A DNA stretch of 28,075 nucleotides from a virus: positions 1 to 28,075 of the IMG/VR virus record IMGVR_UViG_3300025316_001112. The stretch is one strand, 5' to 3'. This document shows, one piece after another, positions 3,222 to 28,075 of this stretch. The position numbers and the translations under genes were made by a program. Position 1 is the first letter of the stretch. Every line of letters begins with the position of its first letter. The notes below the pieces were generated by a model, which saw nothing but the letters and a program-made list of their open reading frames with translations, searched no databases and was not told the DNA's origin.

Positions 3222-4352
3222 TTATAACCTTTCTATTGTCACCGTTACATCACCGAGGATAATAACTTTATCGGTTTCAAGCGCGATATCCTCGCTGGGT
3301 ACCGTGATTTTAACATTCCTGACCGCCGGCACCTTGCTTTTAATCGTATATATAATATCGGCCTGGTTAAGTATATTAAGGTCGCGGTTTGTGCTGACCT
3401 TCAGCAGCTCCGCTATTGCCGCCGTTACGGCGTCCTCCAAACCTGTGTCGCTTACGTTTGACGGAATGTATACTGTTACGGCAACGGCCTGTGGAACGGT
3501 TTCAGAGCTCTTTACAAGCACATCGTCATAGCTGCCCTTGATTTTATCCGCCTCAGCCTGTACGGCTTCCAATAGGCCTTCTGTGGCCTCACCTGTAGTG
3601 CTTGTAACAATAATGTCAACCGTGCCCTGCCCGCGGGGATGCAAATCATCTACCGTCACAAACAGCACGCCGGCAACGGCCTCGCACACATTCTTGTATT
3701 TTTCCGCGATGGTCTTGGTTGCGAGTTCCGCCCATGAGTTAAGCGTTCTTGAACGCAGGCTCTCAAGGTCTTCCTGGTCGGCGCCCTCTCTGGTTATCCA
3801 GCCGGTATTGTTTATCAGCGTACATCCGCCGTCAAGGTATGTCAGTGTTCTGGTTATTTGGTTGGCAGGCACGTTGTAATTTGCGCCGGCCGCCTCTGCT
3901 TCTACAAGCACGTCAACCGTGTTAGAACCCTGCTGCAGGATAGTATCGTTAAGCACAAAGAAACGCAGCTCCTCGCCGTTGACATCCTTGATTGTTTTGA
4001 ATACCTGCCCCTTAGGTATCCGGACGGCGTCTGTGCCGTCACCCCTTGTGACCGTCACATTGCCCTGCGTTTTCAGCGCGTCCTTCTGTTTTTTGCTGAA
4101 GTCGGCCGCTTTCAGCGTCAGCCATATTCCGGTTGCATGTGATACAAACATATTGTTGAGCACTGTCCGCATCAGCTGCACAAACTCAATCCGGATCTGC
4201 AGCACAATCATAAGCAGTGTGTAGAATATGCCGCCGGAACTGAAGTTTGTGATAACAAAGCCTTCATCCTTCAGCTGCGCGATAGTTGCGTCCTTGAGTT
4301 CATCAATATCGGGTACCGGCAATATTTCGTCTAAAATGCTGTCGTCTATCAA
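3222..4352 (-). CDS. Baseplate J-like protein (Mu Gp47 type)
   Basis: A 376-aa wedge protein of the baseplate. Recognisable features are the N-terminal helix region, a KAADFSKKQKDALKTQGNV segment leading into a beta domain, and the central ITREGADQEDLESLRSRTL motif, which is characteristic of Baseplate_J proteins (D-x-E-x-x-R-x-R). The C-terminal half has paired V-x-V strands. It starts at TTG (4352), with GGAGG 10 bp upstream, and overlaps the upstream Gp46-like gene by 4 bp. The usual order Gp46-Gp47-Gp48 is kept. Confidence 0.85.
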   Translation of the reverse strand: MIDDSILDEILPVPDIDELKDATIAQLKDEGFVITNFSSGGIFYTLLMIVLQIRIEFVQLMRTVLNNMFVSHATGIWLTLKAADFSKKQKDALKTQGNVTVTRGDGTDAVRIPKGQVFKTIKDVNGEELRFFVLNDTILQQGSNTVDVLVEAEAAGANYNVPANQITRTLTYLDGGCTLINNTGWITREGADQEDLESLRSRTLNSWAELATKTIAEKYKNVCEAVAGVLFVTVDDLHPRGQGTVDIIVTSTTGEATEGLLEAVQAEADKIKGSYDDVLVKSSETVPQAVAVTVYIPSNVSDTGLEDAVTAAIAELLKVSTNRDLNILNQADIIYTIKSKVPAVRNVKITVPSEDIALETDKVIILGDVTVTIERL

Positions 4353-6381: not shown

Positions 6382-8526
6382 TTAGCCCTCCCCTTGTGTA
6401 ATAAGGGCGTTGCTGTTGATATTATTTTCTATTTCGTCAACAATCTTAAACAGCTGCGCCAGCTCCTTAATCTTGTTGATGTCGATATTCATAATTAACC
6501 GGTCTATTTTGGTGCCAATCTGCTTCTCTTTTTTAGTCTCTTTGGTTGTTTTTTCGGTTTGGTATATCTCTCTGATGCTGATTTTTTTGAGCGGTTCGCG
6601 CTGCACAGCCTTTTTGTTTCCGTCGTTTCCGTCCTCAATCTGCCAGTTAACCAGGTTCAGGCTCTTTTCAACTGCCTGGTACGGCAGATTCTCGCCTTTC
6701 TGTATGCCGGTTGCGAGTGTGGACATGGTTCTGTGTCCGGAGAGCGTCAGGGTTGCAAGCGGTCCTTCTTTGGCGTCGCTGAACGGCAGCAGGTTGCGTA
6801 TTTTCTTGAAAATGTTTTTAATGGCCGTCACCGGTTTCATCGCCGCGCTCTTGATACCGTCAACTAAAGTGTCAATTATCTTTGTTCCGGACTTTTTGAA
6901 CCATGCCGGAAGCCCGGTGAAAAACTCCTTGATTTTGTTGATTCCCACAACAAAGCCGGTTTTGATGTTGGTCCACATGTTGCCGAAAAACGCAACTATC
7001 TGTTTCCAGTGTTTAATAACCAGCAGCGGTATGCCGATAAACGGCAGGAACACGGCCACTGCAATCATTATCCAGCCCTTCATTTTATCAAACAAACCTT
7101 TAATCCAGTCAAATCCGGCTTTCATTCTGTTGACAAAACCGGCCCAGATGTTTTTAATGGCGTCAATTCCTTTGGAAACGCCGGCTTTTATATCATTCCA
7201 TAAAATCTTGAAGAAAGCGGTGATTTGTTTCCAGTGCTTAACAATCAGCAGCGGAATTCCGATAAACGGCAGAAAAACGGCCAGTACAATCATTATCCAG
7301 CCCTTCATTTTGCCGAATAAGTTTTTAATCCAGTCCCACGCTTTGCTGAAATAACCGACGACCTTTTGCCATAATTTCTTAAAAAACTCGCTTATTTTGT
7401 CCCAGTTTTTATAGAGCAATATGCCGATTGCGATAACGGCGGCGATTGCTAAAACAACCAGGCCGATAGGGGACGTTATAAAGGCGAGCGCGGCGCCGAA
7501 TGCCGTTGAAACGCCCGCGGCAATGGCCGTCACCACGTTATAAATCAGTAAAGCACCTTCTACTATGCCGAACGCGGCGCCCAGCGAACCGAGGATGATA
7601 ACAACCGTGTCGATTACCGCTTTATGCCGTTCATAAAATGCGGTTGCTGCTTTAATTTCTCTGCTTACCGCGGCAAGGGTGGGCTTGATTTTTGTTGACA
7701 TGGTACCCGCCCAAATGCCGAATTTTGTGGTTAATTGCGTTAATTTAGGAATAAACGGGCCTAACGCCGTGCCGAGTGCGCCGGCCACGGACTGTTTAAG
7801 CGTTGTCATGCCTTTGTTGAAGCTTGTCAGGCCTTCAACGGTTTTTCCGGACATAACCGCCCCGCTGTCATGCGCTGCCTGCGTCCATGCTTTGAGCTTA
7901 TCGCCGCCGGCCTCAATGAGCGGATTCATCTGCATGGCGCCTTTGCCGAATATCTTCATGGCAAGCGCGTTGCGCAGTGCCGGGTTTTCAATTTTCTTCA
8001 AAGCGTCAAGAGATTCAGCCATAACATCGTTGCTGTCCCGCATTTTGCCTGTCACCGGGTCCAATGCTTTAACGCCCAGCTCTGTAAATGCTGCCTTCAT
8101 CGCTTTATTGCCGGTATAAACGCCGTACATGTTTTTCTGCAGGAACTTGGAACTGTTGTTCATTGCGTCAAGGCCTACGGAGCACTTGGCGCCGACATAG
8201 GTCATTTCCTGTATTTTGGTTGTTGTTTGTCCGTATATCTCTGCGTTGCGCGATATCTCTTCGGCGCTTTCTGCAGACTTTAAAACGATGGCGCCCAGCG
8301 CGACCGCTCCGGCTCCTGCTCCGACCGCGAGCCCTTCAAGGCCTTTTTTCACTTTTCCGCCGAGGTTTGATGTGAAGCTGTCAAATTTCTTGCTTTCCGC
8401 CAGCGCGGATGCGCCGATCGCGTTGAACTTGCTGCCGACGGATGTCTTGACCCTTTCCAGCGGGCCGGACATCTTATCCACCATGTTCATTATAAGGGAA
8501 AGTTTGAATATCGATTCCAGGCCCAC
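6382..8526 (-). CDS. Tail tape measure protein
   Basis: At 714 aa it is the longest gene of the tail module, directly after the chaperone pair, as expected for the tape measure. It begins with a helical region, has a glycine/alanine-rich hydrophobic segment around 65-85, and several strong hydrophobic segments in the middle (about 305-375, and two near-identical KGWIMI..VFLPFIGIPLL segments). It ends in a charged helical tail. It starts at GTG (8526) with GAGGTGAG upstream. A tandem duplication with a 75-residue period is present in the centre. The protein sets tail length and is injected ahead of DNA. Confidence 0.92.
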   Translation of the reverse strand: MGLESIFKLSLIMNMVDKMSGPLERVKTSVGSKFNAIGASALAESKKFDSFTSNLGGKVKKGLEGLAVGAGAGAVALGAIVLKSAESAEEISRNAEIYGQTTTKIQEMTYVGAKCSVGLDAMNNSSKFLQKNMYGVYTGNKAMKAAFTELGVKALDPVTGKMRDSNDVMAESLDALKKIENPALRNALAMKIFGKGAMQMNPLIEAGGDKLKAWTQAAHDSGAVMSGKTVEGLTSFNKGMTTLKQSVAGALGTALGPFIPKLTQLTTKFGIWAGTMSTKIKPTLAAVSREIKAATAFYERHKAVIDTVVIILGSLGAAFGIVEGALLIYNVVTAIAAGVSTAFGAALAFITSPIGLVVLAIAAVIAIGILLYKNWDKISEFFKKLWQKVVGYFSKAWDWIKNLFGKMKGWIMIVLAVFLPFIGIPLLIVKHWKQITAFFKILWNDIKAGVSKGIDAIKNIWAGFVNRMKAGFDWIKGLFDKMKGWIMIAVAVFLPFIGIPLLVIKHWKQIVAFFGNMWTNIKTGFVVGINKIKEFFTGLPAWFKKSGTKIIDTLVDGIKSAAMKPVTAIKNIFKKIRNLLPFSDAKEGPLATLTLSGHRTMSTLATGIQKGENLPYQAVEKSLNLVNWQIEDGNDGNKKAVQREPLKKISIREIYQTEKTTKETKKEKQIGTKIDRLIMNIDINKIKELAQLFKIVDEIENNINSNALITQGEG
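7021..7335 (-). repeat. Tandem 225-bp duplication inside the tape measure gene
   Basis: Two copies of about 75 codons with period 225 bp: the sequence beginning CAGCAGCGG at 7021 recurs at 7246, and both encode KGWIMI...FLPFIGIPLL...KHWKQI. The copies differ at the nucleotide level (third positions) more than the protein does, so the duplication is old and kept under selection. Confidence 0.85.
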
Positions 8527-13736: not shown

Positions 13737-13785
13737 GATTAATTTTCCTCCTCAAATAATAAAATAATTTGCTTTTTCTTCTTTG

Positions 13786-13833
13786 CCTCTCCTGCATCAG
13801 GAGAGGTGGCACGCTTAAGCGTGACGGAGAGGT
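13786..13833 (-). repeat. Palindromic repeat, family B copy 1
   Basis: Two hairpins in a row: CTCTCCT/AGGAGAG, then CACGCTT-AAGCGTG. It is near-identical to copies at 22061, 18174 and 24258, all in the same orientation. No insertion-sequence ends are present. Confidence 0.9.
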
Positions 13834-13838
13834 CAGGC

Positions 13839-13910
13839 TTTAGACTTCTGACTTTAGACTTCCAACTTTTGTTCTCCGTCTACCGTCTAATATCTAATAT
13901 CTAACGTCTA
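13839..13910 (-). repeat. Heptad repeat tract behind cement gene stop
   Basis: Two runs of 7-bp units in plus-strand terms: TTTAGAC/TTCTGAC/TTTAGAC/TTCCAAC, then CTCCGTC/TACCGTC/TAATATC/TAATATC/TAACGTC. The second run reaches to within one base of the stop codon at 13912. Confidence 0.85.
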
Positions 13911-13911
13911 A

Positions 13912-14442
13912 TCACGTAACCGCGTCCGTTCCGTTGACCCACGCCGTTCCGTTGAACTTGAGCACCTGGCCGTTGCTCGGGCTGGTCAGCGTTACGCCGG
14001 TCAAATCGGTGAGGGCCATCGCCGGGATAGAAACCTTCGGCGTCTCGACAAGCACGCCGTCGTCGGTCACGCCGATTACGGTGCCTGCGCGGGAGCTTCC
14101 GGTGGCCAATGAACTGACCGTGTTGTCATCCTCGATGTAACAGTCCTTCAGCACATGCGCTTTGGTGACGGCGTGCGAAACGGAATTGTTCCAGACGAAT
14201 GTGCCGCGGCGCACCTTCACGGTTTTTGCGCCGGCAATTCCGCCGGTGTTGTCAACAAACTCCTCCGCGCGGCCTGCCGCCGTTAAACTGGCTGCCAGAA
14301 CCGCAGCCTTTGCGTTGCCGCTGGCGTCCAGCACAACAAGGCCGCCTTCGTGAATAACCGCTTCGGCATCCACCGGCAAAATAAGGAATTTCGCGCTGTC
14401 CGCGACTTCCGGGGTATTTCTTCCTGCTGTTAAACCTGCCAT
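13912..14442 (-). CDS. Capsid cement/decoration protein with fibre-like C-terminus
   Basis: A 176-aa protein between protease/scaffold and capsid. It has the pattern of phage cement (decoration) proteins: a beta-sandwich with GGLVVLDASGNAKAAV and TVIGVTDDGVLVET stretches. The last ~30 residues, LTGVTLTSPSNGQVLKFNG and after, match the short repeat usually found in phage tail-fibre or cell-surface proteins, an odd ending for a capsid protein. GGAGG lies ahead of the ATG. It probably sits on the outer face of the capsid. Confidence 0.7.
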   Translation of the reverse strand: MAGLTAGRNTPEVADSAKFLILPVDAEAVIHEGGLVVLDASGNAKAAVLAASLTAAGRAEEFVDNTGGIAGAKTVKVRRGTFVWNNSVSHAVTKAHVLKDCYIEDDNTVSSLATGSSRAGTVIGVTDDGVLVETPKVSIPAMALTDLTGVTLTSPSNGQVLKFNGTAWVNGTDAVT

Positions 14443-18101: not shown

Positions 18102-18147
18102 CCTCCCTTGTTAAAGGGAGGGGGACCGCCGAGGCGGTGGTGGGATT
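18102..18147 (-). repeat. Palindromic repeat, family A copy 1
   Basis: CCTCCCTT-gtta-AAGGGAGG hairpin, then a second hairpin ACCGCC-GA-GGCGGT, then GGTGGGATT. The second stem differs from other copies but remains fully paired. Confidence 0.9.
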
Positions 18148-18173
18148 CATCAGGAGGGGGATTAACTGCTTTG

Positions 18174-18221
18174 CCTCGCCTGCATCAGGAGAGGTGGCAC
18201 GCTTCAGCGTGACGGAGAGGT
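18174..18221 (-). repeat. Palindromic repeat, family B copy 2
   Basis: CCTCGCCTGCATCAGGAGAGG then CACGCTTCAGCGTG. One base (G at the T position in the left arm) breaks the first stem; the second stem stays paired with a changed loop. Confidence 0.85.
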
Positions 18222-18223
18222 CA

Positions 18224-18255
18224 GTGCTTCAAACTTCCACTTCCAACTGCCCACT
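18224..18255 (-). repeat. Heptad repeat tract at terminase stop
   Basis: Units GTGCTTC, AAACTTC, CACTTCC, AACTGCC, CACT; the last unit runs into the TAA stop at 18255-18257. Confidence 0.8.
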
Positions 18256-20015
18256 TAATACCCGCCGCTCCTGAACCTCAGCGCTCTGCTCACAACGCTC
18301 TTATAATCAACCTTTGTCCCGAACTTTACGTTGAGCGCGATTCTTACCGCCATTTCAAGCGCGTCCGGCCCGTCATCGTTCTTGCCCATCGGGTATTCCT
18401 TTAGCTGCTGCAGGAGCGTTTTGTGTTTCTCGCTGAATAGGATGTATCCGTTCTTGATAAACGGCTGCAGGGACTGAATGCGCATGTCCTTGTTGCCGGT
18501 GCTGTTGATTTCCTCTATAGGCAGGTACTCGCCGGCCTCGACGCTTTTCTTGGCCATAACATCCTTGAAAAAGTGCTGGAACTGTACCGTCTCAACGCCG
18601 AACTTGCTGAAAGGCTTTTTAAATTCCCGGCGCAGCCGCTTGCTTGTTTCGATGGCGTCATCAATAATCACATCCGGATGCCGCTTTTCGATGCTCGCCG
18701 CCACAACATACATGTACCCGGTCTTTGTGTCCTTTGCCAGGGCGATGATAGCGGAGGTGTCGCTCTTCTTATTTTTGCCCAGCGACGGGTCATTGGAACC
18801 CACAAACAGAAAACGCGGCTCTGCAAAGTTAACCTCTTCATCCTTATAAAAACGGAACCATTCCTCATTAAACGTGCAGTTGTCCGGGTCGATCGGGTCG
18901 TTCTGGATTTCCGAGTTGAATGAGGCGTCACCCTCACTAAGCTTGATAACCATCAAATCGTAGTAACTGAGCTTTGCTTCCCACAGAACCTCGGTACCCT
19001 CAAGCATTTCTTCCCGGCTCGCCTCAAAGAATTCCTTTGCTTCCTCCTGCCGGTCGTCGTTGAAGAGGTCTGTGTAAATTGCTTCCCATGCATCCCAGAG
19101 TTTGGTGTTCTTGGCAAAACTGATAACGCCGCGGTATTTTACTGTCTTGTAGGATGGGTTTGCGGCGACGTTGGCAAGCAGCGCGTCATAGTGCAGCAGC
19201 GTGCCGATGTAGACAATGTCCGTGTAGGTGTCGCCGGCTTTGCTGACCGCCTTGTAAAACCAGTTGCGCATCTTCTTGCGCTGGTCCGGTGTGTTGACGT
19301 TCTCGTCATTCTCGAGGTCATCGCAGAGGATAAGGTCGGGCCTCCAGGAGCCGTGCCGCCGTCCGCGGATTTTCTTCCCGCTGCCGATGGCCTCAATCTT
19401 TACCCCGGTAGAAAGCAGGATAACCCCCGCTTTCCAGACCTTGCCTTGTAAAATGCCGAAATCCTCCCGGATGGCCGTGTTACTTTCAAGCTCGGTTTTG
19501 ATGTCTGTCAAAAATCCCTCTGCCTGGTCGGAGCTGTCAGAGAGGATGATGATGTAATGCTTGTATGCGTATAGCCCTGCGTGCAGCGTATCCTTAAAGG
19601 TGAAGGTGGTTGATTTTGCGTGTCCGCGGGGTGCCTCGATGCAGCGCCTGCATCCTTCCATGCGGGAGATCTCTTTTGCGTCACGCAGCGCGTCCTTGCC
19701 CTTCATCACGCCGTCTTCCCATATGGCGTCCAGCTCCCCGTGGAACTTTGGCGATTCTCTTATGAAGTAGTGCGGCAGGTAGGCGCGCCCGAAATATTCC
19801 ATGTCGAATGCGGCAAGCTTCTTGCGCAGCCCCTTCGGGCCTGTGAGCTCGGTTCCGTCCCGGTAATCCTTCAGGAGCTTTGCCCGTCCCTCCGGGTTTC
19901 TGCCGGCGCGGGCCGCGTAAGCCTCAAAGAGCGCCTTTTGGTAATCCCGGTTTGCAACCGCCTCATGGTCCTCCGGCTCTTCAAGAATCGCAATATAATC
20001 CTTCAGATTTATCAT
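18255..20015 (-). CDS. Terminase large subunit (Mu Gp28 type)
   Basis: A 586-aa packaging motor. Walker A-like APRGHAKST lies at about 128-136, Walker B LILCDDLE at 228-235, and the motor domain follows with a TLLHYDALL segment. The C-terminal nuclease has NDPSLG (acidic residue near 409) and DDGPDALEMAV near 547-557, the usual RNase H-like metal-binding residues. Size is normal for this family. It acts with the upstream Gp27-type protein (probable small subunit) and docks on the portal gene product downstream. AAAGGA lies ahead of the ATG. Confidence 0.92.
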   Translation of the reverse strand: MINLKDYIAILEEPEDHEAVANRDYQKALFEAYAARAGRNPEGRAKLLKDYRDGTELTGPKGLRKKLAAFDMEYFGRAYLPHYFIRESPKFHGELDAIWEDGVMKGKDALRDAKEISRMEGCRRCIEAPRGHAKSTTFTFKDTLHAGLYAYKHYIIILSDSSDQAEGFLTDIKTELESNTAIREDFGILQGKVWKAGVILLSTGVKIEAIGSGKKIRGRRHGSWRPDLILCDDLENDENVNTPDQRKKMRNWFYKAVSKAGDTYTDIVYIGTLLHYDALLANVAANPSYKTVKYRGVISFAKNTKLWDAWEAIYTDLFNDDRQEEAKEFFEASREEMLEGTEVLWEAKLSYYDLMVIKLSEGDASFNSEIQNDPIDPDNCTFNEEWFRFYKDEEVNFAEPRFLFVGSNDPSLGKNKKSDTSAIIALAKDTKTGYMYVVAASIEKRHPDVIIDDAIETSKRLRREFKKPFSKFGVETVQFQHFFKDVMAKKSVEAGEYLPIEEINSTGNKDMRIQSLQPFIKNGYILFSEKHKTLLQQLKEYPMGKNDDGPDALEMAVRIALNVKFGTKVDYKSVVSRALRFRSGGY

Positions 20016-20148
20016 AGAAATCCTTTCATCTTAAACCTCCCTTGTTAAAGGGAGGGGGACCACCGCAGTGGTGGGGGGATTGCGTTCTTCGTTCTTCATC
20101 TACCGTCTAACATCTACCGTCTAACATCTACCGTCTAACATCTAATAT
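20016..20148 (-). other. Repeat-filled gap between Gp27-type gene and terminase
   Basis: 133 bp: heptads 20101-20151, then a family A element at 20036-20081. There is no gene. Confidence 0.8.
20036..20081 (-). repeat. Palindromic repeat, family A copy 2
   Basis: CCTCCCTT-gtta-AAGGGAGG, then the variant second stem ACCAC-CGCA-GTGGT followed by GGGGGGATTGCG. The stem is again paired although the bases differ from the other copies. Confidence 0.9.
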
Positions 20149-22030: not shown

Positions 22031-22060
22031 CCGTCCTTTACTTCTTTGCTTCCTGCTGTG

Positions 22061-22108
22061 CCTCTCCTGCATCAGGAGAGGTGGCACGCTTAAGCGTGAC
22101 GGAGAGGT
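22061..22108 (-). repeat. Palindromic repeat, family B copy 3
   Basis: CCTCTCCTGCATCAGGAGAGG and CACGCTTAAGCGTG, the same sequence as the copy at 13786. Confidence 0.9.
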
Positions 22109-22132
22109 TTTACTTGCTTGCTTCCTGCTGTG

Positions 22133-22224
22133 CCTCCCTTAATAAAAAGCTTTAGCTTTTTTAAATGAACCGCTTGCGGTTCTATGTGAAACGGGAGGGG
22201 GACCGTCGCAACGGTGGGGGGATT
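22133..22224 (-). repeat. Expanded family A palindrome with nested hairpins
   Basis: The left arm CCTCCCTT and right arm of the first hairpin are separated not by the usual 4-nt loop but by ~50 bp containing two more hairpins: AAAAAGC-TTTA-GCTTTTT (22144-22161) and GAACCGC-TT-GCGGTTC (22167-22182). The right part (GACCGTCGCAACGGTGGGGGGATTGCG) is unchanged. Confidence 0.85.
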
Positions 22225-22545: not shown

Positions 22546-22691
22546 CTTGTAGGCCTCCTTAATGATGAAATAATTGCTCTTTCTCCAGAACTTTAGTTCT
22601 GTTTTGCCTCCCGCCTTATCTCTTTCCCTGCGTCCCTTGTTAAAGGGAGGGGGACCGTCGCAACGGTGGGGGGATTGTGTCTTCCGACTTC
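22546..22691 (-). other. Repeat-filled gap between endolysin and Mor
   Basis: 146 bp: heptads (22681-22708), a family A element at 22633-22676, then CCTTTCTC-rich leader and the AAGGAGG site of the Mor gene. There is no gene. Confidence 0.75.
22633..22676 (-). repeat. Palindromic repeat, family A copy 3
   Basis: TCCCTT-gtta-AAGGGAGG, second stem ACCGT-CGCA-ACGGT, then GGGGGGATTG. It lacks the outer CC of other copies (GTCCCTT instead of CCTCCCTT). Confidence 0.9.
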
Positions 22692-23642: not shown

Positions 23643-23747
23643 AATGTTAACCTCCTAAATTTTTATAAAATCTTTTACTTATTTGCCTCCCTTGTTAAAG
23701 GGAGGGGGACCGCTTGCGGTGGTGGGATTCCGTCCATCTTCCTACTT
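23643..23747 (-). other. Repeat-filled gap between Gp16-type gene and endolysin
   Basis: 105 bp holding heptads and a family A palindrome (23686-23729), then AT-rich leader and the AGGAGG site of the endolysin. Confidence 0.75.
23686..23729 (-). repeat. Palindromic repeat, family A copy 4
   Basis: CCTCCCTT-gtta-AAGGGAGG, second stem ACCGC-TT-GCGGT, then GGTGGGATT. It matches the copies at 26730 and 27334 except for one loop base. Confidence 0.9.
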
Positions 23748-24237: not shown

Positions 24238-24447
24238 TCAGTGCTCTTCCTGCTGTGCCTCGCCTGCATCAGGAGAGGTGGCACGCTTTAGCGTGACGGT
24301 GAGGTCGTTCTCTTCCTGCTTTGCCTCGTCTTTCTTCTCTGCCTGCGTCAGCGTGTTCCCCTTGCAGTTTGGGCAGATAAACAGTTCAAACAAGGTGTAT
24401 CCTGTGGTCTTGCACTTCTGGCAAATATACATTCCGGTAACTTTCAT
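24238..24447 (-). CDS. Zinc-ribbon protein with repeat-derived C-terminus
   Basis: A 69-aa protein, CxxC...CxxC (C9, C12, C25, C28), a zinc ribbon that resembles small phage early proteins of unknown role. The start at 24447 (MKVTGMYICQ) has GGGAG ahead; the longer start (24552) would run through a palindromic repeat and is rejected. Residues about 48-63 are encoded by a family B palindrome (24258-24305), so part of the C-terminal tail (DLTVTLKRATSPDAGE) is a translated repeat. Confidence 0.8.
   Translation of the reverse strand: MKVTGMYICQKCKTTGYTLFELFICPNCKGNTLTQAEKKDEAKQEENDLTVTLKRATSPDAGEAQQEEH
24258..24305 (-). repeat. Palindromic repeat, family B copy 4, within a gene
   Basis: CCTCGCCTGCATCAGGAGAGG and CACGCTTTAGCGTG, lying inside the zinc-ribbon CDS in frame with no stop. 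Other B copies lie between genes. Confidence 0.9.
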
Positions 24448-24582
24448 TGATATCACTCCCGTAATCTTCTTTACGTCCCTTGTTAAAGGGAGGGGGACCG
24501 TCGCAACGGTGGGGGGATTGCATCCTTTCGTTCTCCATCTACCGTCTAACATCTACCATCTAACATCTAATGTAGCCACTGC
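24448..24582 (-). other. Repeat-filled gap between Gam and zinc-ribbon gene
   Basis: 135 bp: heptads (24540-24588), a family A element (24475-24519), then leader. There is no gene. Confidence 0.75.
24475..24519 (-). repeat. Palindromic repeat, family A copy 5
   Basis: GTCCCTT-gtta-AAGGGAGG, second stem ACCGT-CGCA-ACGGT, then GGGGGGATTG. Same sequence as the copy at 22633. Confidence 0.9.
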
Positions 24583-24588
24583 CTACTG
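24540..24588 (-). repeat. Heptad repeat tract at the Gam stop
   Basis: TACCGTC, TAACATC, TACCATC, TAACATC, TAATGTA, GCCACTG, CCTACTG; the Gam stop (24583-24585) lies inside the last unit. Confidence 0.85.
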
Positions 24589-25086
24589 CTTTTGCAGCTT
24601 TTCCCTGTCCGCCTCATACCAAAACACATCTTCCTTTTTCAGCACAAGCCCCACCTTAACAATCTCATCCTCGCTGTATTTCTTGAGCACGTCCTTGTTG
24701 ATGGTTTCCGTCGTCACAATGCAGTCGTGCATCTTGCGGGATTTCAGCGTATTGATAAGGCTTTCAAGCTTCTCCTTTGCCTTCGGCAGCAGTATCTTTG
24801 TGCTCAGGCGGAACCCGGTCTTGCCGAAATTGAGCGTCTTGGTCTTGCCGTCCAGTTCCTCCCGGTGCTCTTCCACAAACGCCTTGATGTCCTTGCCGAG
24901 TGCCGATATATGGTCCTGCAGCGGTTTGGCCTCCTGCGCTGCCGTCACCTTGGCGCCGGCAATCTGCTTGTTCATTTCCCCTTCGATGTCGAGCAGGTCA
25001 ATTTCCGCCTCCGCGATTTCCTTCAGCGCGTTGTCAATGTCCTCCCATGTCTTAAAGTTCGGTGTTTCCTTAATCTTTGTTCTCAT
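24583..25086 (-). CDS. gam: Gam-like host-nuclease inhibitor
   Basis: A 167-aa helical protein of the Mu Gam family: FKTWEDIDNALKEIAEAEIDLLDIEGEMN, a coiled coil to about 75, then GKTKTLNFGKTGFRLST, a conserved strand pair. Mu Gam is a Ku-like protein that binds DNA ends and protects them from host exonucleases. The frame is open up to 25161, but AAAGGAG lies before the ATG at 25086. It overlaps the preceding gene by 17 bp. Confidence 0.9.
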   Translation of the reverse strand: MRTKIKETPNFKTWEDIDNALKEIAEAEIDLLDIEGEMNKQIAGAKVTAAQEAKPLQDHISALGKDIKAFVEEHREELDGKTKTLNFGKTGFRLSTKILLPKAKEKLESLINTLKSRKMHDCIVTTETINKDVLKKYSEDEIVKVGLVLKKEDVFWYEADREKLQKQ

Positions 25087-25561: not shown

Positions 25562-25608
25562 GTCCCTTGTTAAAGGGAGGGGGACCGTCGCAACACGGTG
25601 GGGGGATT
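25562..25608 (-). repeat. Palindromic repeat, family A copy 6
   Basis: GTCCCTT-gtta-AAGGGAGG, then ACCGTCGCAACACGGT (loop longer by two bases), then GGGGGGATTCC. Confidence 0.85.
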
Positions 25609-25620
25609 CCGTTCCTCGTT

Positions 25621-25697
25621 CTCCATCTACCGTCTAATATCTACCATCTAACATCTAACGTACCTGCTGACCACTGCCCACTGCCCACTATCCACTG
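25621..25697 (-). repeat. Eleven-unit heptad repeat tract
   Basis: Eleven 7-bp units stand in perfect phase: CTCCATC, TACCGTC, TAATATC, TACCATC, TAACATC, TAACGTA, CCTGCTG, ACCACTG, CCCACTG, CCCACTA, TCCACTG. The unit sequence changes from the TAxxATC type to the CCACTG type halfway without loss of phase. Confidence 0.9.
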
Positions 25698-25712
25698 GCG
25701 GCCAAAGCCGCC
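25697..25712 (-). terminator. Small GC hairpin at the MuB-type stop
   Basis: GGCGGC-caaa-GCCGCC, immediately past the TAG stop. There is no T-run behind it; it may stabilise the mRNA end rather than terminate. Confidence 0.5.
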
Positions 25713-26674
25713 TAAAGCATCATCATCTTGCTTGCCCGGTTAATGATGTCCAGCGTGATGACGCCGTCGGTACCGCTTTCCGGCAGAATACGCAGCACAT
25801 TGTTGAGCGTCCTGTCCAGCAGCCGGAAGCATCCTGTCTGCCGGTTGCAGGCGCGGTTCTTCAGTTCATTGAGCGCGGCCTCGTCAGCTGTAAAAGTTTC
25901 AAGGTATTTGTCAACCTCCGCTTTTTGCAGGCCCTTCAGGCTCGCGTAAAAGTCAACCCGGTTAGCGAAGCGCGCAATATAGGTCTTTATCAGCGGCTCA
26001 AGCTTCGGTTCGCCGGCAATAACAAGCCCCACGTCGCTCTGGTCGAAGATGCCCCGGAGGATCTCCATTTTCTTCTGTGTGCTCTTGTTAATCAGCTTGT
26101 CCGCTTCATCGATAACAAGCAGGTACCCGCGGTTTACCCTAAAGAAATCACGCACGCCGTTCACGCGCTCCCAGATGGTCCCGTACGTCATCGGGATGCC
26201 CAGCGCGCGCTCAATGGCCTTTACAAGGTCCCTGCAGCTCATTGTGTCGTCGCATTCAAGGTAAGCGACCCGGGGCATTTTAGCGTAATGCTTCAGCGCG
26301 AACGATTTGCCGTAGCCCGTCTTGCCGATAATGATGCCGAGCCCGATATAATCCTGGCATGATTTGCACACGCCGATAATGTTGCCCGCGTCCTCGCTGT
26401 TAAAGATGCTGGTGTTTCTGGTAATGTTGGCGGTTGTTTTCGTGTGCTCTTCCCCGGCAAATTCAGCGAGGAATGCATTGAGCTTTTCCTCAAGTTCCGT
26501 CGCGTCGTTGTCGTATTTGCCGGCAAGGTAGCGGCTCACCGTCGAGCGGCTGTAATTAATGGCGCTTGCAAGCTCCGTGATAGTGAGTTTGGAGCGTTTA
26601 ATATAGTCGTTGACCTTGTCGGCCAGTGATAATGCGCTGAAATTGCCCTGGTAAATTTTTCCTGCTGCTTCCAT
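25712..26674 (-). CDS. MuB-type transposition AAA+ ATPase
   Basis: A 320-aa AAA+ protein with Walker A GKTGYGKS at 117-124 and Walker B LLVIDEAD at 185-192; residues ~18-60 form a helix-turn-helix (TITELASAINYSRSTVSRYL). This is the Mu B layout: DNA-binding N-terminus, ATPase core, C-terminal helical part. It picks target DNA, polymerises on it, and stimulates the transposase; it also protects the phage from self-insertion. The gene is separated from the transposase gene by a cassette flanked by a 105-bp duplication. AAGGAAG lies ahead of the ATG. Confidence 0.93.
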   Translation of the reverse strand: MEAAGKIYQGNFSALSLADKVNDYIKRSKLTITELASAINYSRSTVSRYLAGKYDNDATELEEKLNAFLAEFAGEEHTKTTANITRNTSIFNSEDAGNIIGVCKSCQDYIGLGIIIGKTGYGKSFALKHYAKMPRVAYLECDDTMSCRDLVKAIERALGIPMTYGTIWERVNGVRDFFRVNRGYLLVIDEADKLINKSTQKKMEILRGIFDQSDVGLVIAGEPKLEPLIKTYIARFANRVDFYASLKGLQKAEVDKYLETFTADEAALNELKNRACNRQTGCFRLLDRTLNNVLRILPESGTDGVITLDIINRASKMMML

Positions 26675-26775
26675 GCTTTTTTACTTCCTTTCAACTCTCA
26701 TTATGGTTTTAATTTTTGTTTCTGATTTGCCTCCCTTGTCAAAGGGAGGGGGACCGCTTGCGGTGGTGGGATTTA
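26671..26775 (-). repeat. 105-bp direct repeat, copy near MuB
   Basis: Identical by eye over 105 bp to 27275-27379. It holds the MuB start codon, its ribosome site AAGGAAG, an AT-rich leader and the family A element (26730-26773). Both copies lie on the same strand, 604 bp apart. Confidence 0.95.
26730..26773 (-). repeat. Palindromic repeat, family A copy 7
   Basis: CCTCCCTT-gtca-AAGGGAGG, second stem ACCGC-TT-GCGGT, then GGTGGGATT. It is part of the 105-bp direct repeat. Confidence 0.9.
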
Positions 26776-26776
26776 C

Positions 26777-26805
26777 TTGTAATATTTCTTTATTTGCGTT
26801 ATGAT
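26777..26805 (+). promoter_or_regulatory. Candidate promoter for the plus-strand gene
   Basis: TTGTAA (26777-26782), 17-bp AT-rich spacer, TATGAT (26800-26805). Spacing is optimal, the -10 has 5/6 and the -35 has 4/6 matches to sigma-70. The plus-strand gene starts 23 bp further on. Confidence 0.6.
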
Positions 26806-26827
26806 GTTCGCGAAAGGGGGTGAAAAT

Positions 26828-27034
26828 ATGCTTGATTTTGAAAGTTTCGCTTTAAGTCTGACACCGGAAAAATTGAATGATATTCAAAAATCGGCTCAAG
26901 AACTCGCGAACAAAGTACCTATTCCTATTGTTGATGATTCCATATTACCAAAATTGAATTGGAAACTTAATATGGTATCCGCTTACCAAACAATTGAAAT
27001 CCTGCGCCTTTATCATGCGTCTATGAATCCTTAG
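26828..27034 (+). CDS. Plus-strand cargo gene (moron-like, 68 aa)
   Basis: The only credible plus-strand gene of the window. AAAGGGGG lies 7 bp ahead of the ATG at 26828; an upstream ATG at 26801 overlaps the promoter and is rejected. The product MLDFESFALSLTPEKLNDI... is helical, acidic-amphipathic, 68 aa, and unknown to me. It runs against all phage genes, has its own promoter, and overlaps the end of the 27021-27278 gene by 14 bp. These are signs of a cargo gene expressed in the prophage state. Confidence 0.65.
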   Translation: MLDFESFALSLTPEKLNDIQKSAQELANKVPIPIVDDSILPKLNWKLNMVSAYQTIEILRLYHASMNP

Positions 27035-27278
27035 CCGGTTTCAAATCTTTCGTGTATTCCTCAATTTCTGAGAAGAATCTAACCATTTTAGCGATTACTT
27101 CCTTGGGTATGAGCGCTGCATCTGCGTCCGGCTGGCTTTTTTCTATGGTTATAAAGTCAATTGTTCTCACTATCTCACACATTGCGTCGGTAACGCCGAT
27201 TGCTGCCTCATCACTTTTCTTTGCGAGCTCCGCTAACAGTTCCAGCTGTTTGCGGAGTATCTCTTTTTCCTTTTCCAT
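27021..27278 (-). CDS. Hypothetical helical cassette protein (85 aa)
   Basis: An 85-aa protein with a charged helix start (MEKEKEILRKQLELLAELAKK), a mid segment with aromatic and Ile residues, and a C-terminal helix. I do not recognise it. Its start codon and AAGGAAG ribosome site are inside the second copy of the 105-bp direct repeat, the same leader used by MuB. It converges on and overlaps the plus-strand gene by 14 bp. Confidence 0.6.
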   Translation of the reverse strand: MEKEKEILRKQLELLAELAKKSDEAAIGVTDAMCEIVRTIDFITIEKSQPDADAALIPKEVIAKMVRFFSEIEEYTKDLKPAKDS

Positions 27279-27379
27279 GCTTTTTTACTTCCTTTCAACT
27301 CTCATTATGGTTTTAATTTTTGTTTCTGATTTGCCTCCCTTGTCAAAGGGAGGGGGACCGCTTGCGGTGGTGGGATTTA
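27275..27379 (-). repeat. 105-bp direct repeat, copy near MuA
   Basis: Second copy, holding the start codon of the 27021-27278 gene at one end and the transposase stop codon TAA (27377-27379) at the other; the family A element is at 27334-27377. Confidence 0.95.
27334..27377 (-). repeat. Palindromic repeat, family A copy 8
   Basis: Same as the copy at 26730, with TGTCAAAGGG loop. It directly abuts the transposase stop with no heptad tract in between, the only such case. Confidence 0.9.
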
Positions 27380-28075
27380 ACTCAAATTGCGTATTATCTC
27401 ATACGCTTCATCCGCTTTTTTTTGCATCCACGGGTCTATTGTCCTTATCTCTTCATCCTGTTGGATTTTCGCCGTTTTTGGTTTGCTCTTTTTGTCCTTG
27501 GCCGCAGCCTTAGCCTCTGCCCGGTATTCCTTGTCATCCGGCAGCTGCACAACCTTCTCGTTTCGCGCGTCGTTCTTAACCGTAAGGTCTAACCCGCCCA
27601 CAACCATTGGCGTGCCGCCGTCATTCTGTCCCCGGAGCTCATACGGTGTGCGGAACTCGGCAAGCAGCTCCTGTGTCTCGCGTATCTGCCTCTTTTGGTT
27701 CCGGATGTGCGTCTCCAGGGCGGCCTGTGATACCCCGGGCGCGAATTGGAGCAGCTCCGCGGATACTGCCTCGCATATTTTCTTGCCGCTTCGGTCATAA
27801 ACATAGAGTTTTGTAACGTCGTTAAGGTCCCATTTCACCCCGACCGTCTCGCCGATGTAATGGCAAAGCTCATAATCTGTGTAGAGTGTGCCGAATTTCA
27901 TAATGCCCTGGTTGCGCACAAGCGCTTTGTCGGCATTCATCAGCATAATGGCCGCGTATTCCCTTGGCGGTGATGCTTTTATGTACCGTTCTTCGGCGTT
28001 TTCAAAGAGCGAAATAGGCGTTATGTGCTTCTCCCGGTCTTTCCGGAGTGAACTGTGCTCCCGCTTGTGGTAAAA
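27377..28075 (-). CDS. MuA-type transposase, C-terminal part (cut by window edge)
   Basis: A 232-aa fragment, open from the window edge. It starts FYHKREHSSLRKDREKHITP, with catalytic core residues missing off-window. Residues ~50-130 match the Mu transposase C-terminal beta-barrel (NADKALVRNQGIMKFGTLYTDYEL ... VTKLYVYDRSGKKICEA). After it comes a coiled helix and a basic, disordered tail ending RTIDPWMQKKADEAYEIIRNLS, where MuA contacts MuB and ClpX. The gene makes the transposase that cuts the phage ends; it lies upstream of the MuB-type gene, with the cassette between. Confidence 0.85.
   Translation of the reverse strand, partial: FYHKREHSSLRKDREKHITPISLFENAEERYIKASPPREYAAIMLMNADKALVRNQGIMKFGTLYTDYELCHYIGETVGVKWDLNDVTKLYVYDRSGKKICEAVSAELLQFAPGVSQAALETHIRNQKRQIRETQELLAEFRTPYELRGQNDGGTPMVVGGLDLTVKNDARNEKVVQLPDDKEYRAEAKAAAKDKKSKPKTAKIQQDEEIRTIDPWMQKKADEAYEIIRNLS

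Follow-up and report, generated by a model that had tools for sequence, protein, structure and literature searches.

Mosaicism among phage genomes is usually attributed to illegitimate recombination, the junctions of which have since been erased. In temperate phages, the name moron is given to a low-GC extra gene that separates two genes found side by side in relatives. REP and REPIN sequences are short, hairpin-forming palindromic repeats dispersed in bacterial chromosomes (PMC3116915). In cluster K mycobacteriophages the start-associated sequences SAS and ESAS are repeats bearing inverted repeats that lie upstream of the start codons of several genes, mostly in one orientation, and they are conserved across the cluster K phages (PMC3203893). 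The locus described here, the junction between the transposase and MuB genes of a Mu-like phage, shares features with morons and with both of these repeat families.

The window, meaning the whole stretch analysed, comprises 28,075 nucleotides of IMG/VR virus record IMGVR_UViG_3300025316_001112. Searches of Pfam and PHROGs identified MuA (PF09299), MuB (phrog_296/TniB) and Gam (PF07352), encoded in a single block, together with a Mu Gp27-type small terminase, and the window is therefore assigned to a Mu-like transposable phage whose closest named relatives are the Mushuvirus phages. All major genes in the MuA-MuB region are on the minus strand: the C-terminal part of the MuA transposase (27377..28075, Mu-transpos_C), which continues beyond the window end, is followed by the MuB-type ATPase (25712..26674, AAA_22/TniB). 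A further record, 3300009175_000392, derives from the same phage (99.94% identity over 5,079 bp) and ends short of the region of interest. Elsewhere in the window, a 714-aa ORF that is probably the tape measure gene contains a 159-bp direct repeat (77%) at 6952-7335.

How unusual is the MuA-MuB junction? It was compared with those of 75 relatives, made up of IMG/VR contigs and Mushuvirus, whose MuA proteins are 36-73% identical. The gap between the two genes is 702 bp in the window and at most 60 bp in 73 of the 75, for the most part 9-60 bp and nearly always a plain ribosome site. The exceptions are contigs L076 (120 bp) and L084 (713 bp). In the latter the junction (3263-3977) is occupied by an unrelated ORF of 218 aa, part of which looks by eye like a helix-turn-helix; this junction thus accepts genes independently. 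The cassette ORFs described below occur in none of the 75 relatives, and in the collections searched the cassette, both of its ORFs and the 60-bp part of its leader are confined to the window and one identical IMG/VR record. Together with the short gaps of the relatives, this supports a derived insertion restricted, in those collections, to one phage lineage, as the initial annotation had proposed; many diverged relatives carrying both leader copies and the cassette, which would have contradicted it, were sought and none was found among the 75. Its expectation of an ancestor with a single leader copy was not borne out, as the relatives lack the leader as well and no single-copy version was found in IMG/VR. 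The insertion is real, well delimited and derived, and is a variant of known phage mosaicism.

The cassette is bounded by an exact direct repeat of 107 bp (26669-26775 and 27273-27379; 100% identity, 604 bp from start to start), slightly longer than the 105-bp duplicated leader first reported, and a repeat of this kind cannot be due to chance. Read in gene orientation, copy A (27273..27379, minus strand) begins with the MuA TAA stop codon (27377-27379) and continues through a two-hairpin repeat, here called R1, and an AT-rich 60-bp leader containing AAAGGAAG to the ATGGAA of an 85-aa ORF (ORF85); copy B (26669..26775, minus strand) carries R1, the same 60-bp leader and the ATGGAA of MuB. The first two codons (ATG GAA) of both genes thus lie inside the repeat. 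Its positions 3-47, about half of its length, are R1, and the other 60 bp, which carry the ribosome site, are found in the window at these two places only. MuB begins with ATGGAA in 57 of the 75 relatives, and the repeat therefore agrees at its 3' end with the start proper to MuB. The folded leader is no more stable than its shuffles (z -0.67), and hairpin 2 of R1 in the leader has no T-run after it; R1 was accordingly rejected as an intrinsic terminator.

As the window is a contig from a short-read metagenome, assembly could in principle have introduced the second leader copy or miscounted the cassette units, for a tandem 604-bp array would collapse to the form observed. That explanation is barely credible, given that the same assembly appears in two records and that both outer junctions are of unique sequence. 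The second record (3300022555_003185) is 100% identical to the window across an overlap of at least 7,361 bp and has both leader copies, although it is not certainly independent, as it may have been built on related reads. It is the one other IMG/VR record to contain the 60-bp leader core, again twice, and no excised form of the cassette was found. Direct repeats that flank an insert exactly are also what a small mobile element would leave by duplicating its target site. Here, however, the 497 bp contain neither a transposase nor bounding terminal inverted repeats such as a transposon or MITE would have, and the repeat itself is missing from the relatives and so is not simply a duplicated target, all of which makes such an origin very improbable.

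Within the leader, the palindrome noted at the outset upstream of MuB proved to be part of the dispersed repeat R1, which has the form AATCCC[T/A/C]CCACC-loop-GGTCCCCCTCCCTTT[A/G]ACAAGGGAGG and spans 45 bp in the leader. Eight intact copies are present in the window, all on the minus strand. Two lie in leader copies A (27333..27377) and B (26729..26773); the others are found between MuB and a 147-aa ORF (25563..25608), upstream of a Zn-ribbon ORF (24476..24519), upstream of the endolysin gene (23688..23729, the copy most similar to those in the leader) and after it (22633..22676), between the terminase genes (20038..20081) and after the large terminase gene (18104..18147). R1 is also dispersed in bacterial chromosomes (at least 120 stretches), with matches in all 15 R1-bearing genomes examined and up to 60 in one, and is abundant in Clostridia; it is absent from the loci of about 75 related phages. 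Because the host copies were retrieved with hairpin 2 fixed, only hairpin 1 is informative on pairing. There the stem still pairs although the loop differs between copies; of 75 distinct copies, 58 have at least two inner pairs, against 39.6 expected from re-paired halves. With many chromosomal copies and conserved pairing, R1 is in general terms a REP-like dispersed hairpin repeat, and the phage host, judged by R1, is probably a member of the Clostridia; searches via the repeats R2 and R3 found no host. Four further IMG/VR contigs (L102, L103, L105 and L107) carry R1 and may be either phage or host DNA.

The orientation of R1 raises the prospect that the phage uses the leader as a regulatory module, repeated and kept before several genes for coordinated expression in the manner of the start-associated sequences of the cluster K mycobacteriophages, with the identity of the copies due to function or conversion. 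All eight copies in the phage follow gene orientation, against an even split (32 vs 30) relative to flanking genes in bacterial chromosomes. The 60 bp that carry the ribosome site are nevertheless present only twice, and R1 is a chromosomal dispersed repeat that the relatives do not have; we regard this explanation as unlikely.

R1 is not restricted to the MuA-MuB junction: elsewhere in this phage, too, gene junctions exceed those of relatives in length and contain R1 or dispersed repeats of two further types. The Gam-GemA junction is 370 bp against a median of 17 (a length equalled or exceeded in 6 of 52 relatives), endolysin-Mor 146 bp against 11, Mor-holin 474 bp against 136, and the junction of the terminase subunits 133 bp against 5 in the one relative available for comparison. 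Between R1 and R2 in the Gam-GemA junction lies the Zn-ribbon ORF (69 aa, 24238-24447), which is absent from relatives, so that the MuA-MuB junction is not the only one to have an extra gene flanked by repeats. R2 is a second dispersed hairpin repeat with the core CACGCTTAAGCGTGCCACCTCTCCTGATGCAGGAGAGG, present in four copies of the same orientation (13778-13868, 18166-18256, 22053-22143 and 24250-24340); in IMG/VR its core matched only records of the same phage, and it was not found in a sample of 299 genomes belonging to the same phylum as a Clostridia MAG. Heptamer-phased repeats of TAGATGTTAGACGG and GGAAGTAGGAAGT types also occur directly 3' of stop codons (13850-13914, 20070-20148, 24509-24590 and 25597-25677), and presumably resemble the short tandem heptamer repeats of cyanobacteria.

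The 497 bp between the leader copies, initially annotated as some 500 bp with two unknown genes, hold ORF85 on the phage strand (27021..27278, minus), the start codon of which is within leader copy A, and a convergent 68-aa ORF (ORF68; 26828..27034, plus) that overlaps it by 14 bp and extends to 77 aa if read from an upstream ATG at 26801. Both are likely genes rather than proven ones, as dinucleotide shuffles give an ORF of at least 84 aa in 12% of cases and ORFs of at least 68 aa on both strands in 3%; given the latter figure, one of the convergent pair may be spurious. Phage codon usage favours the ORF85 frame. Nowhere in the window is the GC content lower than in the cassette with its leader (39.4% against 50.9%, in the lowest 1% of windows). 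Neither ORF has relatives in phages, in IMG/VR outside the identical record or, in a search run without a positive control, in 291 Clostridia-side genomes each, and the cassette region matched no plasmid. Pfam, PHROGs, NCBIfam, PADLOC and PDB sequence searches returned nothing usable for either, nor did a PDB fold search for ORF68. AlphaFold2 modelled ORF68 as a three-helix protein (pLDDT 79); the ORF85 model is poor (pLDDT 60).

The proposal that the leader drives expression of the cassette could hold for one ORF only. It is plausible for ORF85, which has the ribosome site and ATG common to both copies and would be made together with the early operon. ORF68 runs in the opposite direction and cannot use the leader. 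It has a good ribosome site (SD-like GGGGGTGA) and is preceded by a promoter-like TTGTAA-17-TATGAT (26777..26805, plus) adjoining the edge of leader copy B, a 9/12 match that is not above chance; transcription from here would run against MuA, and no terminator was found after the ORF. A moron-like accessory role seems likeliest for these ORFs; possible alternatives are that they act as a toxin-antitoxin pair or damp MuA through antisense transcription.

What series of events could have produced this arrangement? We consider it somewhat more probable than otherwise that a Mu-like phage of an R1-bearing bacterium gained foreign DNA of low GC content, about 700 bp in all, at its MuA-MuB junction, comprising R1, the 60-bp leader and the 497-bp cassette, in which one or two small accessory genes reside. 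We infer the following order. Foreign DNA (39% GC) would have entered the junction, joined on one side at R1, a sequence presumably common to donor and phage; the ORF68-side edge of the duplicated block is within 2 bp of the R1 boundary, which suggests R1-assisted recombination at that edge. The other edge is at the start of MuB and ORF85, and the opposite junction would have formed at or near ATGGAA, through microhomology or as a duplication endpoint, leaving both genes with a leader. ORF85 could then be read with the MuA-MuB operon from the ribosome site and start of copy A and, because the duplicated leader supplies both ORF85 and MuB with a ribosome site and start codon, MuB need not have been silenced; ORF68, with its own ribosome site and promoter-like sequence, could be expressed from the prophage in the manner of a moron. 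No donor locus was found among phages, plasmids or Clostridia-side genomes. The recombination at the repeated leader suggested by the initial annotation is unsupported, since R1-R1 exchange by itself cannot copy the 60 bp beyond R1, and the recent date inferred from the identity of the copies fits them, but gene conversion would leave the same identity.

Conversion also bears on polarity. As the relatives lack either leader, either copy could be the first, and the cassette with its own R1-leader may be the older element in this lineage, its leader later being copied onto MuB by gene conversion or unequal exchange with the ATGGAA common to ORF85 and MuB as the exchange point, the reverse of the order first proposed. 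This would require a second event replacing the ribosome site belonging to MuB, for which no intermediate is known, and we think it a minority prospect. The acquisition of foreign DNA with its leader remains the preferred reading. A wider and rather speculative extension is that chromosomal R1 colonised the gene junctions of the phage and became a shared recombination site for the pick-up of host DNA, the MuA-MuB cassette being a recent instance in which the putative edge promoter, antisense to MuA, might damp transposase expression.

The window offers a seemingly fresh insertion with its junctions still visible, one edge of which coincides with a dispersed repeat of chromosomes. The greater surprise is that a chromosome-type repeat fills the junctions of a phage. 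The R1 family, common in Clostridia, has no match in Rfam, and no description of it was found in the literature searched. If hosts and prophages have such repeats in common, it becomes possible to test directly whether genes are picked up at junctions filled with repeats.

Compared with known systems, the window phage has the MuA-MuB-Gam-GemA backbone in common with Mushuvirus mushu (Faecalibacterium phage FP_Mushu), with MuB about 60% identical, but the MuA-MuB gap of the latter is 15 bp and is without leader, cassette or R1. The cassette resembles a moron in its low GC content and in its position between genes that are neighbours in relatives (gaps of at most 60 bp in all but two of them), and differs in the long perfect direct repeat on both sides and in a promoter and terminator that are at most putative. 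Like SAS and ESAS, R1 and the leader are repeated, bear inverted repeats and lie upstream of several phage gene starts in one orientation; unlike them, R1 is chromosomal and is missing from related phages. Its sequence presumably differs from those of REP and REPIN. R1 is like these elements in being short, hairpin-forming and dispersed in chromosomes, and unlike them in that it also sits in a phage.
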